DNA of 64,000 bases from Acidobacteriota bacterium (lineage in GTDB: Bacteria; Acidobacteriota; Terriglobia; Terriglobales; Acidobacteriaceae): the NCBI GenBank assembly GCA_013289795.1, contig JABCZH010000001.1, positions 248,001 through 312,000 of the forward strand. Reading direction: 5' to 3'. Positions 30,958-36,846 of this stretch are shown here, one piece after another. A program made the translations under genes and the position numbers. Position 1 is the first letter of the stretch. Each line of letters starts with the position of its first letter. The notes under the pieces are model-generated. The model was not told the origin of the DNA, searched no databases, and saw nothing but the letters and a program-made list of their open reading frames with translations.

Positions 30958-31293
30958 GTGGCCCCGTCGCCTGGGGTCCTGGGTACTGCCCGCCTCGCCC
31001 CTTGAATCCCGTTCCCGTTGGGAACAACCGCCAACCGTAAATGGTACAGCCAGTGCTTCGGCTGGCATATTCTCTCTGTCCTCGACTGCTCCGGGTGCCT
31101 TTGCCGTCCCTCCCGGTTGCATAGCTATGGACGTGTCAGGATGAGAACCGTGAGCAGGATTATAGGGGAGGGGCAGGATTTCTGCTGACGCATTGTATTG
31201 TCAGGAAAGGTTTTAGGCGGTTTGATCTGCCGCCGCACCAAAAGTAACGCGGTTCGCTCTGGCAAGCCTCGCAGGGCTCCGGAAAAATCGATA

Positions 31294-31367
31294 AACCACA
31301 AAGGACACAAAGCTTCACAAAGGTCCGGGTTGAAGATTTCCTTTGTGTACCTTTGTGCCCTTTGTGG
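31294..31367. repeat. Intergenic hairpin of CACAAAGG words (family 1 variant)
   Basis: Left arm 31294-31323 and right arm 31340-31367, each three CACAAAGG-type words. It lies between rplI and the sigma-factor gene. Both arms use the CACAAAG word, in contrast to CACAGAG at 1744 and CGCAAAG at 40684. Confidence 0.85.
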
Positions 31368-31384
31368 AACGGAACTAAGTTTGC

Positions 31385-31837: not shown

Positions 31838-31869
31838 AAGTATGACTCCCGTTCTATAAAATCTCTTTG

Positions 31870-31939
31870 CCGCAGATTCACGCCGATTTAGCAGATCAAT
31901 CAAAGAACATCGTTGATCCGCGTCATCAGCGGCGGATTT
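31870..31939. repeat. Intergenic hairpin of GCAGAT/ATCCGC words (family 3)
   Basis: Arms at 31870-31899 and 31913-31939 are imperfect inverted copies with CCGCAGAT, CGCCGAT and GCAGATCAA words. It fills the rpsR-rplI gap and its right edge touches the rpsR stop codon. Confidence 0.65.
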
Positions 31940-32321
31940 ACGATGCCCGCCCGGCAAACGGCAGCAGCGCGATATTGCGCGCCTGCTTAATGGCACAGGA
32001 AAGCCGCCGCTGATGCGGTGTGCACACGCCCGTCAATCGCCGCGGCGTGATCTTTCCGCTCTCTGCCACGAATTGCGCCAAGAGGCGGACATCTTTGTAA
32101 TTGATGGCCTCAATTTTTTCGACGCAGAACTTGCAGACTTTCTTGCGCCGGAAGAATTTGCGGCCTCCGGGGCCGCCCTCGCCACGTCCGCCGGGACGCG
32201 GTGGACGGCGCTCGCCGCGATCGGGCCGGTCGCCGCCGCCGGAAGGTCGATCACCCCCCGAGGGCCGATCGCCGCCGGAGTGTGAGGATGCACTTGTTGT
32301 CGGTCTAGTTTCGTCAGCCAT
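31938..32321 (-). CDS. rpsR: 30S ribosomal protein S18 with long Gly/Arg/Pro-rich N-terminal extension
   Basis: A 127-residue protein. The S18 core is residues about 53-127 ([46 protein letters not shown]-like end), with cysteines of the zinc-type C+ form. The first 50 residues are disordered, with tandem SGGDRP units followed by RG/PG-rich sequence, unlike the typical 75-residue S18. Start at ATG 32321 ([10 protein letters not shown]). Gap to rpsF about 128 nt with a hairpin repeat. Confidence 0.95.
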
Positions 32322-32336
32322 GATGCTCCTTAAAAT

Positions 32337-32443
32337 CTGTCGTTGGTCGTGGGTCGTCTGCCGTTGGCTTTTCGTTCTGTAGCCGCAGATGATTGCGGCG
32401 CATCGATCGCTGGCCAACGACCAAAGACCAACGACGAACGACG
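32337..32443. repeat. Intergenic hairpin of CCAACGAC words (family 4)
   Basis: Left arm 32337-32368 (GTCGTTGGTCGTGGGTCG...) and right arm 32412-32443 (GGCCAACGACCAAAGACC...) are inverted copies built from CCAACGAC words. It sits in the rpsF-rpsR gap. Related words occur at 9706, 33610-33665 and 56365-56395. Confidence 0.75.
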
Positions 32444-32449
32444 GGGTTC

Positions 32450-32860
32450 CTATGCCGTAGCCGCCGGCGCTTCTCCGGCCGGTTCTGAAGGCGTTGGCGC
32501 GGGTGCCGGTGTTGCTGAAACCTTACGCCGCGAGTCGCGGATGGCCTTGATCTTGTCCAGCCGCTTTTGCTCTTCATCAATACGTACCGTCAGGAATTTG
32601 ATCACCGGCTCGGTCACACGCAGACGGCGCTCCAGTTCATGAATCAGGCCGCCACTGCCTTCCAGGGTGAGCAGAATGTACAGGCCATCACGAAATCTGC
32701 GGACCGAGTAGGCGAGATGGCGCTTGCCCATCTTTTCGACGTTCTTCATTTGACCACCCGACGTGGTAACGGCGGTTTCCAGAGTCGAAATCAGCTTGTC
32801 CTGTTCCTCTTCCGGCATATCCGGGCGGACGATAAACATGAGTTCATAAGTGCGATTCAT
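32450..32860 (-). CDS. rpsF: 30S ribosomal protein S6
   Basis: A 136-residue protein: S6 core 1-100 ([38 protein letters not shown]) plus an Ala/Pro-rich tail ([16 protein letters not shown]). It binds 16S rRNA with S18, whose gene follows. Confidence 0.97.
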
Positions 32861-32878
32861 TTAGTTCTCCAAATCTGG

Positions 32879-32940
32879 CCACGGATTCTCACGGATCATC
32901 ACGGATAAACCCAACGCAAATCCGTGTTCATCCGTGTAAA
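32879..32940. repeat. Intergenic hairpin of CACGGAT/ATCCGTG words (family 2)
   Basis: Left arm 32879-32907 contains three CACGGAT words and right arm 32917-32940 contains ATCCGTG words. It fills the pth-rpsF gap. A related single arm is at 36771-36798. Confidence 0.8.
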
Positions 32941-32947
32941 TCGGCGG

Positions 32948-33535
32948 CTACTCTTTCTCTGGTTCGTCCGGCTTGCGGTTGTACCGGTTCATCGCCGCCG
33001 CCGGTCCTTCTTTCAAAATCGCTTCCACTGCTTCGGCAGCGAGGTCGAGCATTGGATCCACCAGTTTGAGCTGCGCCTTGCGGAAGGGCGAGAGCAGATA
33101 AGTCATCCCGTCTTCCACCTTGCGGTCCGGCGCGACGCCCATCCGGATGCGCAAGAAATCCTGCGTACCTAGCGCCCCAATCACCGACTCAATCCCGTTA
33201 TGCCCCGCCGAACTGCGGTTCCGATGGATGCGAACCGTACCCAATGGAAAATCCAACTCATCCTGAATTACCACCAAGTCGGTTTCCGGCTTGGCGTCGT
33301 GCTCGGCCAGCAGTTCGCGCACCGAGAGACCACTCAAATTCATGAACGTCTCTGGCTTGGCCAGCAGGACCGTCTCCGAGCCGATTACCGCTTTCGCGGT
33401 CAACGCCCGGCACTGGCGGTTTCTCACTTCGACTTTCGCCTGCTCGGCGATTCTATCGATGACGAGAAAGCCCAGGTTATGCGGCGTGAACTGATACTCG
33501 ATGCCCGGATTGCCGAGACCAACGATCAGCTTCAC
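32948..33535 (-). CDS. pth: Peptidyl-tRNA hydrolase
   Basis: It recycles peptidyl-tRNA that drops off the ribosome. The 195-residue protein has KLIVGLGNPGIEY, the catalytic His in FTPHNLGF, KPETFMNLSG with the active-site Asn, and SAGHNGIESVIGALGT. The C-terminus is lysine/glutamate rich. It lies between rplY and rpsF, as in many bacteria. Confidence 0.97.
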   Translation of the reverse strand: MKLIVGLGNPGIEYQFTPHNLGFLVIDRIAEQAKVEVRNRQCRALTAKAVIGSETVLLAKPETFMNLSGLSVRELLAEHDAKPETDLVVIQDELDFPLGTVRIHRNRSSAGHNGIESVIGALGTQDFLRIRMGVAPDRKVEDGMTYLLSPFRKAQLKLVDPMLDLAAEAVEAILKEGPAAAMNRYNRKPDEPEKE

Positions 33536-33540
33536 GCATC

Positions 33541-33670
33541 CAGCTCTTAGCTTCTAGCTTGTGGCTCCTAGCTTCCAGCCCACACCCAACCGCCATCGGC
33601 CACTCGCGCTTGCCAACGACCAACGGCCTGCCCTGAGCCGAATGGCGAAGGGACGAACGACCAACGACCG
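33541..33670. repeat. Composite repeat: AGCTTC words plus REP-like core and CCAACGAC flanks
   Basis: The rplY-pth gap holds AGCTTCTAGCTTGTGGCTCC-like words (33545-33580), then CCAACGACCAACG, the core at 33626-33652 that is the exact inverse of 9721-9747, then ACGAACGACCAACGACCGACG. The whole is a palindromic composite around the core. Confidence 0.8.
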
Positions 33671-33678
33671 ACGACCGA

Positions 33679-34413: not shown

Positions 34414-34428
34414 AATTTTGATTCCTGT

Positions 34429-35466: not shown

Positions 35467-35471
35467 GTGTT

Positions 35472-35562
35472 CAGCCTTTAGCTTTTGGCTCTTAGCCTTT
35501 AGCTCAACCCAACTGCCTCAACATTACGGTTAGCCAAAAGCCAAGAGCTAATGGCCAAGAGC
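35472..35562. repeat. Intergenic hairpin of CCAAAAGC/AGAGCTAA words (family 5)
   Basis: Left arm 35472-35503 (TTTAGCTTTTGGCTCTTAGC...) and right arm 35530-35562 (TAGCCAAAAGCCAAGAGC...) are inverted copies. It lies between tRNA-Gln and prs and would form the 5' leader of prs. Confidence 0.75.
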
Positions 35563-35569
35563 TTTTTTC

Positions 35570-35643: not shown

Positions 35644-35649
35644 GTAACC

Positions 35650-35728
35650 CTAGTTTCCAGTTTCTGGTTTCCAGTGGGAAATAAGCATCAACAGAATACT
35701 AGAAACTAGAAACCGGAAACTAGAAACT
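35650..35728. repeat. Intergenic hairpin of CTAGAAAC words (family 6) overlapping the ispE 3' end
   Basis: Left arm 35650-35676 (CTAGTTTCCAGTTTCTGG...) and right arm 35698-35728 (CTAGAAACTAGAAACCGG...). The right arm encodes the last residues of IspE (FLVSGF) and its TAG. Confidence 0.8.
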
Positions 35729-36707
35729 TATTCCAATACTGCCGTCGCGTCAGGGTGCTGGTCGCCAGCGCCTTCACACCCATTTTCTGCAACTTGGCTG
35801 CGGCTCTCTGTGCCGCCGTACGAGTCGCAAACAAGCCGTAAATGGCCGATCCTGAGCCCGATAGCGAAGCATAAAACGCGCCTGCACGCTCGACCACACG
35901 CTTGACCTCAAGCAACTCGGGATATTGCGGAAAGACGACTCGTTCAAAGTCGTTTTCTATCCCGGTACGGACGAGGTCGAGAAGCGGGGTCTCGGCCCGG
36001 CCCCTGCCTCTGGCAGAGACACCGGATAAACCCTTCCCAGACTTGGCTTTGTCTTTGAATCTGCCTGGGGCGCTCAGCCACGCTGAAAGCACGCGACCGA
36101 ACTCATTCATTCTATCGGACGGTTCGGCAGGCGTCAATTCGGCAGCTTGCATCCCATCCCAATCCGCAAACGCCTTCGGAGTCGAAACTCCAACCTCAGG
36201 CGTCACCACCACGCACGCCACCGCGGGCAAATCTGGCAGCGGATATACTTCCTCTCCGCGCCCGACGCCGAGCACGGTTCCTCCTACGAGAAACAGCGGC
36301 AAGTCCGACCCAACTTCCGCTGCAATCCGCAACCTCTCCGGCCCCGGCAACTCTTTCTTCAGTGCCCGCTCCAGCGCCAGCAGAGCGGTTACCGCGTTCC
36401 CTGATGCCCCACCGAGGCCACCTTGCACCGGCAAGCGCTTCTCAATCTCAATGACCACCCTCCCACGCGCCCTCAGCGCCGCCACCGTCCGCTCGACGAT
36501 ACGATAGCAAGTGTTCGACCGATCTTTGGGGACGCGCGGATCTTCCGAGCGAATCTCAACGCCCGACCCGCGCCCGACCTGGACTCGGATCACGTCGTGT
36601 AAAGCGATCGTCTGATATACCGTTAGCAGCTCATGGAAGCCATCCGAGCGAAGCGCACCAATGCGGAGCCCGAGGTTGATCTTGGCGAAGGACCGGACGG
36701 TGACCAT
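35706..36707 (-). CDS. ispE: 4-diphosphocytidyl-2-C-methyl-D-erythritol kinase
   Basis: A GHMP kinase of the MEP isoprenoid pathway. Motifs: FAKINLGLRIGALRSDGFHEL at the N-terminus, the ATP loop GGLGGASGNAVTALL, and SLSGSGSAIYGLF near the C-terminus. At 333 residues it is about 40 longer than usual, mainly from an Arg/Gly/Lys-rich insertion near residues 213-242 (KAKSGKGLSGVSARGRGR). Its last six residues and stop codon come from a hairpin repeat. ATTCTA at 36717-36722 (TAGAAT on the coding strand) ends 9 nt before the ATG, implying a leaderless message. Confidence 0.94.
   Translation of the reverse strand: MVTVRSFAKINLGLRIGALRSDGFHELLTVYQTIALHDVIRVQVGRGSGVEIRSEDPRVPKDRSNTCYRIVERTVAALRARGRVVIEIEKRLPVQGGLGGASGNAVTALLALERALKKELPGPERLRIAAEVGSDLPLFLVGGTVLGVGRGEEVYPLPDLPAVACVVVTPEVGVSTPKAFADWDGMQAAELTPAEPSDRMNEFGRVLSAWLSAPGRFKDKAKSGKGLSGVSARGRGRAETPLLDLVRTGIENDFERVVFPQYPELLEVKRVVERAGAFYASLSGSGSAIYGLFATRTAAQRAAAKLQKMGVKALATSTLTRRQYWNKFLVSGF
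35985..36060. repeat. Probable repeat-derived insertion in ispE
   Basis: The DNA coding for the extra Arg/Gly/Lys-rich segment contains CTGCC-TCT-GGCAG, a short palindrome, and ACACCGGATAAACC. The segment has no counterpart in typical IspE, so it may be an intergenic-type repeat captured in frame. Only one copy is in this window. Confidence 0.4.
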
Positions 36708-36721
36708 GGATGAATGATTCT

Positions 36722-36838
36722 AACCACAGAGGGCACAGGGGTACACAGAGCAATTCTCTTGAAAGGTTTGATCCGTGAGAATCCGTGCAAATCCGTGGCT
36801 AAGGTCTTGATCAGCGAAAATCAGCGAAATCTGCGGCC
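36722..36838. repeat. Mosaic of single repeat arms (CACAGAG, ATCCGTG, ATCAGCGAAA words)
   Basis: The 140-nt gap upstream of ispE reads as three arms in a row: ACCACAGAGGGCACAGGGG (36723 on), ATCCGTGAGAATCCGTGCAA (36771 on) and ATCAGCGAAAATCAGCG (36810 on). Matching second arms are absent, suggesting decayed or recombined elements. Confidence 0.7.
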
Positions 36839-36846
36839 CAAAACGT

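Follow-up and report, generated by a model that had tools for sequence, protein, structure and literature searches.

Inverted pairs of short word arrays in the intercistronic gaps of the prs-rplI operon of an Acidobacteriota genome

The window analysed here, a 64,000-nucleotide (nt) stretch of a soil-dwelling Acidobacteriota bacterium (assembly GCA_013289795.1, contig JABCZH010000001.1, positions 248,001 to 312,000), carries on its minus strand an operon whose gene order, confirmed with Pfam, is ispE, tRNA-Gln, prs, rplY, pth, rpsF, rpsR and rplI. An initial annotation, made from the letters alone, had placed arrays of short words in four of the five gaps between prs and rplI, two further families in the gaps on either side of the tRNA gene, and none in the 15-nt prs-rplY gap. 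All of this was borne out, and the 3' flank of rplI holds such arrays as well (Table 1). Each of these elements, called word hairpins below, pairs two short arrays in inverted orientation, the arrays consisting of imperfect words of 7 nt or, less often, 9-11 nt. RNA folding of the gaps gave five strong hairpins and a modest one made of GCAGAT words. The rplY-pth gap, described initially as a composite with a core resembling repetitive extragenic palindromic (REP) sequences, does contain such a core as judged by eye (CCCTTCG..GCTCAGGGCAGG) but lacks a strong fold, and is therefore read as a mosaic of arrays whose stability does not exceed that of shuffles. Exact words were counted: two of GCAGAT/ATCTGC in the rpsR-rplI gap, three of CAACGAC/GTCGTTG in the rpsF-rpsR gap and two in the rplY-pth gap, five of CACGGAT/ATCCGTG in the pth-rpsF gap, and two of CCAAAAGC/GCTTTTGG between the tRNA gene and prs. 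The count of CTAGAAAC/GTTTCTAG within the gap proper between ispE and the tRNA gene is zero because that arm extends into ispE, where the 5' arm of the hairpin makes up the last codons and the TAG stop codon. With Rfam covariance models at the gathering score, the tRNA was the sole match in the window.

Two classes of word are present. The first has a unit of 7 nt and comprises GTCGTTG, AGCTYYT and GTTTCTA, joined elsewhere by CAGCAYT, AGTGGYC, AGTACC, GATTG and AGTTCTC; the second, with a spacing of about 10 nt (9-11), comprises CACGGAT, CACAAAG, CACAGAG and GCAGAT. The arm period is 7 or 14 in 188 of 247 hairpins. Words of the first class occur almost without exception in one polarity (133:1; GTCGTT 30:0, GTTTC 12:0, AGC[TC]YYT 35:1, AGCAYTC 6:0, AGTGGYC 10:0, AGTACC 4:0, GATTG 19:0, AGTTCTC 16:0, AGGG 1:0). 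Among the decamers polarity is uniform for CACGGAT (30:0) and GCAGAT (1:0) and unfixed for CACAGAG (5:2) and CAAAG (0:3), which brings the ratio over all motifs to 169:6, these being counts of motifs that may overlap. As the polarity of a hairpin is identical when read from either strand, these ratios do not depend on a strand convention. For 125 hairpins outside the ispE-prs interval, with start codons picked by homology, the hairpin begins a median of 6 nt past the stop codon and ends a median of 24 nt before the next start.

Table 1. Word arrays in the window, with RNA folding z-scores (200 shuffles per gap), and word arrays within reading frames at other loci of the source genome
Feature	Location	Strand	Folding z-score
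CACAAAG/CTTTGTG word hairpin directly 3' of rplI	31290..31384 (arms 31296-31323, 31340-31367)	-	-6.4
rpsR-rplI gap, degenerate GCAGAT/ATCTGCGG decamer hairpin	31838..31937	-	-2.5
rpsF-rpsR gap, GTCGTTG/CAACGAC heptamer hairpin	32322..32449	-	-4.8
pth-rpsF gap, CACGGAT/ATCCGTG decamer-spaced hairpin	32861..32947	-	-4.7
rplY-pth gap, mosaic of GTCGTTG arrays, CCCTTCG..GCTCAGGGCAGG core and AGCTAGRAGCT arrays	33536..33678	-	-0.02
prs-rplY gap, 15 nt, no hairpin	34414..34428	-	
tRNA-Gln to prs gap, AGCTYTT/GGCTYTT heptamer hairpin	35467..35569	-	-5.0
ispE to tRNA-Gln, GTTTCTA heptamer hairpin	35644..35730 (gap proper 35644-35705)	-	-5.1 (on 35644-35740)
In-frame words, MraW	L292:902-1861		
In-frame words, DnaG	L294:219-2117		
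In-frame words, Pol III alpha-like protein (one gene, two arrays)	L300:157-2367, also L324		
In-frame words, TGT	L314:950-2128		
In-frame words, N-terminus of PmbA/TldD protein	L323:157-1545		

In order to count these elements, a home-made detector combining stem and arm period was applied to gaps from 30 nt up to 600-700 nt, with a score of at least 16 taken as a word hairpin and, outside the operon, with genes called by a home-made hexamer finder (rpsR was set by hand). A period of 8 was accepted in the count over relatives and in the per-kilobase comparison below, and not in the contig scan or the stricter recount. Over positions 1-452000 of contig C1 of the 4.67-Mb source genome, 19 of 286 gaps of 40-600 nt reached this score (co-directional 16/180, convergent 3/40, divergent 0/66), as did none in threefold shuffles and none in threefold coding chunks. 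Among shifts of 1-30, intergenic self-similarity was conspicuous at 7 and 14 (9 and 8 segments, against 0 or 1 at other shifts), with 3 and 0 segments in coding sequence. The rest of the contig has 15 of these hairpins in 446.6 kb, a density far exceeded by the prs-rplI operon with 4 in 5.3 kb (Poisson p 4e-5), a post hoc test on a spot picked by an earlier reader. Two further places in the window deserve mention. A CGCAGAG/CACAGAG decamer hairpin at 1743-1857, missed by the detector, lies in a divergent gap although hairpins are scarce near promoters, and the mosaic gap upstream of ispE (36708-36846) has adjacent CACAGAG, ATCCGTG and ATCAGCG/ATCTGCGG arrays, which are half-hairpins of three decamer families.

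The closest named relatives by rplI are Acidobacteriota metagenome genomes (Terriglobales, 'Ca. Sulfotelmatobacter', SbA1 and similar), and operon order was kept in the 40 relatives fetched as far as their stretches reach, with ispE not found in one (L069). The comparison covered 107 relatives, namely 34 genomes and 73 further named loci inferred to belong to the same family from an rplI identity of at least 72%, after 7 of 80 loci that duplicated counted genomes and six loci of other families had been set aside; each neighbouring gene pair was present in 54 to 71 of the 73. Word hairpins occupied 171 of 503 operon gaps of at least 30 nt, 23 of 353 other co-directional gaps, 4 of 127 convergent gaps and 3 of 119 divergent gaps. 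Word hairpins are thus about five times as frequent in operon gaps as in the other co-directional gaps of the same loci, and with length-matched gaps (50-160 nt) the counts were 114/358 and 13/178. The preference for intercistronic sites, whose absence was to have counted against the initial annotation, is therefore present in this family; in the six genomes of other families (L065-L070, score 16) the counts were 0/20 for operon gaps and 3/23 for other co-directional gaps.

Equally long, repeat-free gaps in relatives were likewise to have counted against it, and here the outcome was mixed. Gaps without a word hairpin are far shorter for prs-rplY (median 22 versus 116 nt), somewhat shorter for pth-rpsF (65 versus 93) and rplY-pth (79 versus 99), and nearly as long for rpsF-rpsR (100 versus 116) and rpsR-rplI (103 versus 112). 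Some of them fold nonetheless, and operon gaps that lack word hairpins do so more often than other co-directional ones: z-scores below -2, computed on the plus strand of each locus, which is not always the coding strand, were found in 95/253 operon, 43/173 other co-directional, 35/83 convergent and 5/43 divergent gaps without word hairpins, and in 42% of such rpsR-rplI gaps and 21% of such rpsF-rpsR gaps (50-180 nt).

Whether the same gap always holds the same family had been posed as a check, and a tendency of this kind was found. The 5-mer Jaccard similarity is 0.085 within a slot and 0.044 between different slots (permutation p 0.002, the minimum with 500 permutations). The CACGGAT/ATCCGTG family recurs in the pth-rpsF slot of many relatives (CACGGAT in 12/19), GTCGTT (9/25) and AGTGGYC (8/25) recur between rpsF and rpsR, and GATTG (20/68), AGCTYYT (16/68) and AGTTCTC (16/68) recur in the two ispE-prs gaps. 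About ten word families nevertheless share these slots, replacement is frequent, and by eye some genomes have a different palindrome or nothing in the same place. Examples of such other palindromes are TCCTCRCTTCGCTCGGAATGACA, GGCTAAAGCC..CACGGCTGAAGCCGTG and GACGGGCGAGACGCCCGTC, seen in L036, L043, L110, L116, L120, L122, L160, L162 and others. The emphasis of the initial annotation on a different family in each gap did not hold up and is incidental: of the 39 genomes that have at least three hairpins, just 13 carry no family twice ('other' counting as one family), and different gaps of one genome resemble each other more than different gaps of different genomes do (0.069 versus 0.044). The idea that neighbouring gaps must differ was rejected on these figures.

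Other core operons are also enriched. Since gene cuts at locus ends distort per-gap counts in short loci, hairpins were counted per kilobase with one detector, which gave 40 in 106.4 kb (0.38) for prs-rplI, 14 in 68.4 kb (0.20) for rpsB-tsf, 16 in 65.0 kb (0.25) for infC-rplT and 15 in 71.7 kb (0.21) for the ATP-synthase A (atp) loci of 20 genomes each, 10 in 67.9 kb (0.15) for rplKAJL in 19 genomes, and 21 in 452 kb (0.046) for all of contig C1, this background coming from the source genome alone and the other-operon loci from 20 genomes chosen partly for richness. Without period 8 the last four operons hold 13, 13, 14 and 8 hairpins, some matches in the first count looking false (e.g. L221, L254, L255), and the stricter detector gave 0.12-0.20 per kb for these loci and 0.034 for C1 outside the operon. 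In the source genome alone, the four loci hold 6 hairpins in 14.0 kb.

A BLAST scan of the source genome with the rpsF-rpsR and ispE-tRNA elements, in which 5 second-arm matches of the same site were dropped, yielded 34 further sites, 17 per query after arm joining. They lie in 22 co-directional, 3 convergent and 2 divergent gaps and in 6 reading frames, with 1 unclear. Seven adjoin a ribosomal-protein or tsf gene (rpsC-rplV, rpsD-rpsK, rplR-rplF, rplX-rplN, rplU-rpmA, rpsB-tsf and tsf-pyrH; p 1e-6 to 6e-5 under assumed base rates of 1.7-3%). These neighbours were identified by Pfam matches to S3, L22, S4, S11, L18, L6, L24, L14, L21 and S2, by a family search for tsf and, for pyrH, as an amino-acid kinase; the gene beside rplU we take to be rpmA. 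Other sites adjoin NuoF, MraZ, MreB, SecG, CoA-transferase and NadA. The products with in-frame words (Table 1) still match their Pfam families, and the word-encoded peptides look similar to the in-frame palindromic inserts reported for Rickettsia (PMC3733652). The suggestion that the arrays are targeted to intercistronic RNA thus stands as far as the preference for operon gaps goes, but was too strong in light of the sites within frames.

Several known classes of element were considered. Among 12 elements of the source genome, arm scores were 0.49 within and -0.125 between families, and loop scores were -0.46 and -0.51; loops were unrelated in 14 same-family pairs, yet in 10 pairs the BLAST alignment, at 71-78%, takes in the greater part of the element. 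Transposition of whole elements, as for miniature inverted-repeat transposable elements, was not supported, given that arms are alike and loops unrelated between copies, even with some full-length alignments. Intrinsic terminators were rejected, a T-rich hexamer (at least 4 T in 6 nt) following in only 10 of 247 hairpins. REP sequences, bacterial interspersed mosaic elements (BIMEs) and GTAG- or CGTC-tagged repeats are likewise short extragenic palindromes, with proposed roles in mRNA stability, termination and supercoiling (Di Nocera et al. 2013, PMC3733652; Sutormin et al. 2018, PMC6379681), whereas the arms described here are word arrays and the loops are unconserved. A classical REP/RAYT system was rejected on tags, with GTAG near the 5' end of 0/247 and CGTC near that of 4/247, the latter four probably stemming from GTCGTT words themselves; the source genome has 6 Y1_Tnp (RAYT) matches. 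For Koribacter, one named repeated family of transposase-flanking repeats is given by Di Nocera et al. 2013 (PMC3733652).

Closer likenesses are found among heptameric repeats. Tandem 7-nt units, a mostly intergenic location and few divergent sites are shared with them, and in place of one lineage-specific word (GGGAATC, GGGGAYT or TAACTGA) there are several families per genome. The GGGAATC and GGGGAYT repeats of Xanthomonas and Nostoc are also inverted heptamers of one polarity, 70-75 close pairs in Xanthomonas being convergent (Rehm et al. 2015, PMC4692102). In those repeats each lineage has a single G-rich word type, discussed in terms of G-quadruplexes; here about ten families, most without G runs and mostly studied as hairpins, replace one another in fixed slots and are densest in core operons, and there is a second, decamer class. 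The TAACTGA repeats of Beggiatoaceae, Cyanobacteria and Bacteroidetes likewise form intercistronic heptamer arrays, including in ribosomal-protein operons, and a post-transcriptional role has been proposed for them (MacGregor 2015, PMC4679880). They consist of a single word in 169 direct sets and one inverted set, with no particular structure predicted, and lie near the start codon, whereas the pairs described here are inverted and begin near the stop codon. Long simple sequence repeats with an excess of heptamers have been proposed to arise by polymerase slippage (Mrazek 2007, cited in PMC4679880 and PMC4692102); the 7-nt unit is shared, but imperfect words with inverted partner arms are not what slippage alone would give. 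In the open-licence literature, searched by title and abstract, no account of such word hairpins in Acidobacteriota was found.

The position and stability of the hairpins, their few U runs, the scarcity in divergent gaps and the enrichment in core operons suggest that they are dispersing repeats put to use as punctuation in the mRNA between cistrons, which is the explanation we tentatively favour while giving it somewhat less than an even chance. Some E. coli REP elements protect the upstream cistron from 3' decay or separate translation units. In this explanation, copying would spread word arrays through the genome, and they would be kept where the host tolerates them or benefits, chiefly in the stretch from a stop codon to the ribosome-binding region of the following gene. 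There, a stable stem a few nucleotides past the stop codon may impede 3'-to-5' decay of the upstream cistron, separate translation units, or both, leaving neighbouring cistrons with different message levels. A slot would then stay occupied while its families drift or replace one another, because shape rather than sequence would matter. The turnover within slots suggests, short of proof, that hairpin shape matters more than exact sequence. In an alignment of 16 pth-rpsF sequences, picked by hand from one family, with CACGGAT-like sequences that were too degenerate left out, standard pairs fill 91.4% of pair cells (90.0 in shuffles) and two-sided changes number 7 (2.6 in shuffles, 2 of 500 of which reach 7); these pair-keeping changes agree with selection on the stem. 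G-U exceeds A-C pairing on the coding strand (343 versus 248; per hairpin 108 versus 62), which was left as a weak sign rather than proof of RNA action because of base skew. Anatomy, polarity, position, divergent-gap scarcity, core-operon concentration and slot conservation with turnover are features of the sequences themselves, whereas action in RNA, protection from decay and selection for retention are inferred; the differential stability of ribosomal-protein messages suggested initially is plausible on the same footing.

A number of observations weigh against mRNA punctuation. The 107 genomes are related, so that counts are not independent and Fisher p values overstate. The trpA loci, for which ribosomal-gene-like expression is not expected, are rich in hairpins too (10 in 74.4 kb; 0.13 per kb with the stricter detector); the hisD loci have none in 50.2 kb, which take in few gaps and just 11 of 20 genomes. 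By eye, some sites have a single clear arm, that is, a half-hairpin without a clear partner. The pairing of an arm with its own partner is only slightly ahead of its pairing with arms taken from similar elements of other genomes (0.843 versus 0.827; 111 better and 85 worse of 197, p 0.013), and the paired register scores 0.84 against 0.73 for shifts by 7, with the register having been chosen by the detector. The few C1 hairpins have no G-U excess (11 versus 14 A-C), and an excess of G in loops could yield the same G-U ratio. Arrays inserted at random in front of a ribosome-binding site that is itself protected would lie at the same distance from the stop codon. Finally, the sites in reading frames lessen confidence in punctuation and raise it in a selfish origin.

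That second explanation, in which the arrays are mostly selfish or mutational, land widely and survive where genes and promoters are undisrupted, with no gain to the host, is nearly as likely as punctuation; transcribed core operons would receive more arrays if open or stalled DNA favours copying. It would account for arms that are common to copies at unrelated loci when the loops are not, for a near-fixed polarity as expected from descent by copying, for single arms and the slight advantage of own-partner pairing, for words within otherwise normal proteins and at the end of ispE, and for the poverty of divergent gaps, which purging predicts. The AGCT word pattern is also patchily distributed in the phylum (present in 42 of 396 genomes, with a reversed control pattern matching some too). 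Harder to reconcile with it are the enrichment where disruption should cost most, the occupation of one slot by different families in many genera, and the compensatory changes in the pth-rpsF slot. Functional retention and tolerance of selfish arrays thus remain close rivals. As a separate observation, three genomes of other families of the phylum (G399, G384 and G361) have long, near-pure tandem arrays of AGCTCRT or AGCTGAT heptamers.

An action on DNA, in which cruciform-prone repeats would serve gyrase or nucleoid proteins as sites for relieving supercoiling near strongly transcribed operons, has been proposed for E. coli BIMEs and would fit the concentration in core operons and the scarcity in divergent gaps, BIME-2 repeats being gyrase cleavage sites (PMC6379681). 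We consider it improbable here: gyrase has a preference for certain REP types while the families here share no sequence, BIME-2 cleavage was independent of transcription in that same study, and there is a slight G-U excess on the coding strand. Least probable of all is a protein that reads 7-nt words in RNA or DNA, with the hairpin a by-product of paired arrays, since, although the dominant period of 7 fits and S1, Csp or CsrA-like binders were proposed for TAACTGA repeats (MacGregor, PMC4679880), about ten families in shared slots are hard to square with one sequence-specific reader.

A more elaborate form of the punctuation explanation holds that in core operons of this bacterial family the hairpins are slot-conserved and interchangeable in sequence, with unrelated families of near-strict polarity swapping as they are fed by an undescribed kind of copying, which has arrays of 7- or 10-nt words as its unit and also writes in-frame protein inserts; taken as a whole, this is rather unlikely, though worth stating. 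Intergenic heptamer arrays are known, in inverted form from Xanthomonas (PMC4692102) and as TAACTGA arrays from ribosomal operons of Beggiatoaceae (PMC4679880). What is of value here is that the gaps between cistrons of core operons are where word hairpins of many families, with near-strict heptamer polarity, are densest and succeed one another. An excess of heptamers has been noted since 2007, and little beyond the slippage hypothesis has been offered for it (as cited in the same two papers). The Acidobacteriota described here provide a natural experiment over many genomes, in which the same slot and genes carry different word families, and three questions can be put to the test with it: is the shape of the hairpin the thing preserved, is polarity a mark of how the arrays are copied, and are selfish repeats a source of regulatory RNA parts for ribosome and ATP-synthase operons?

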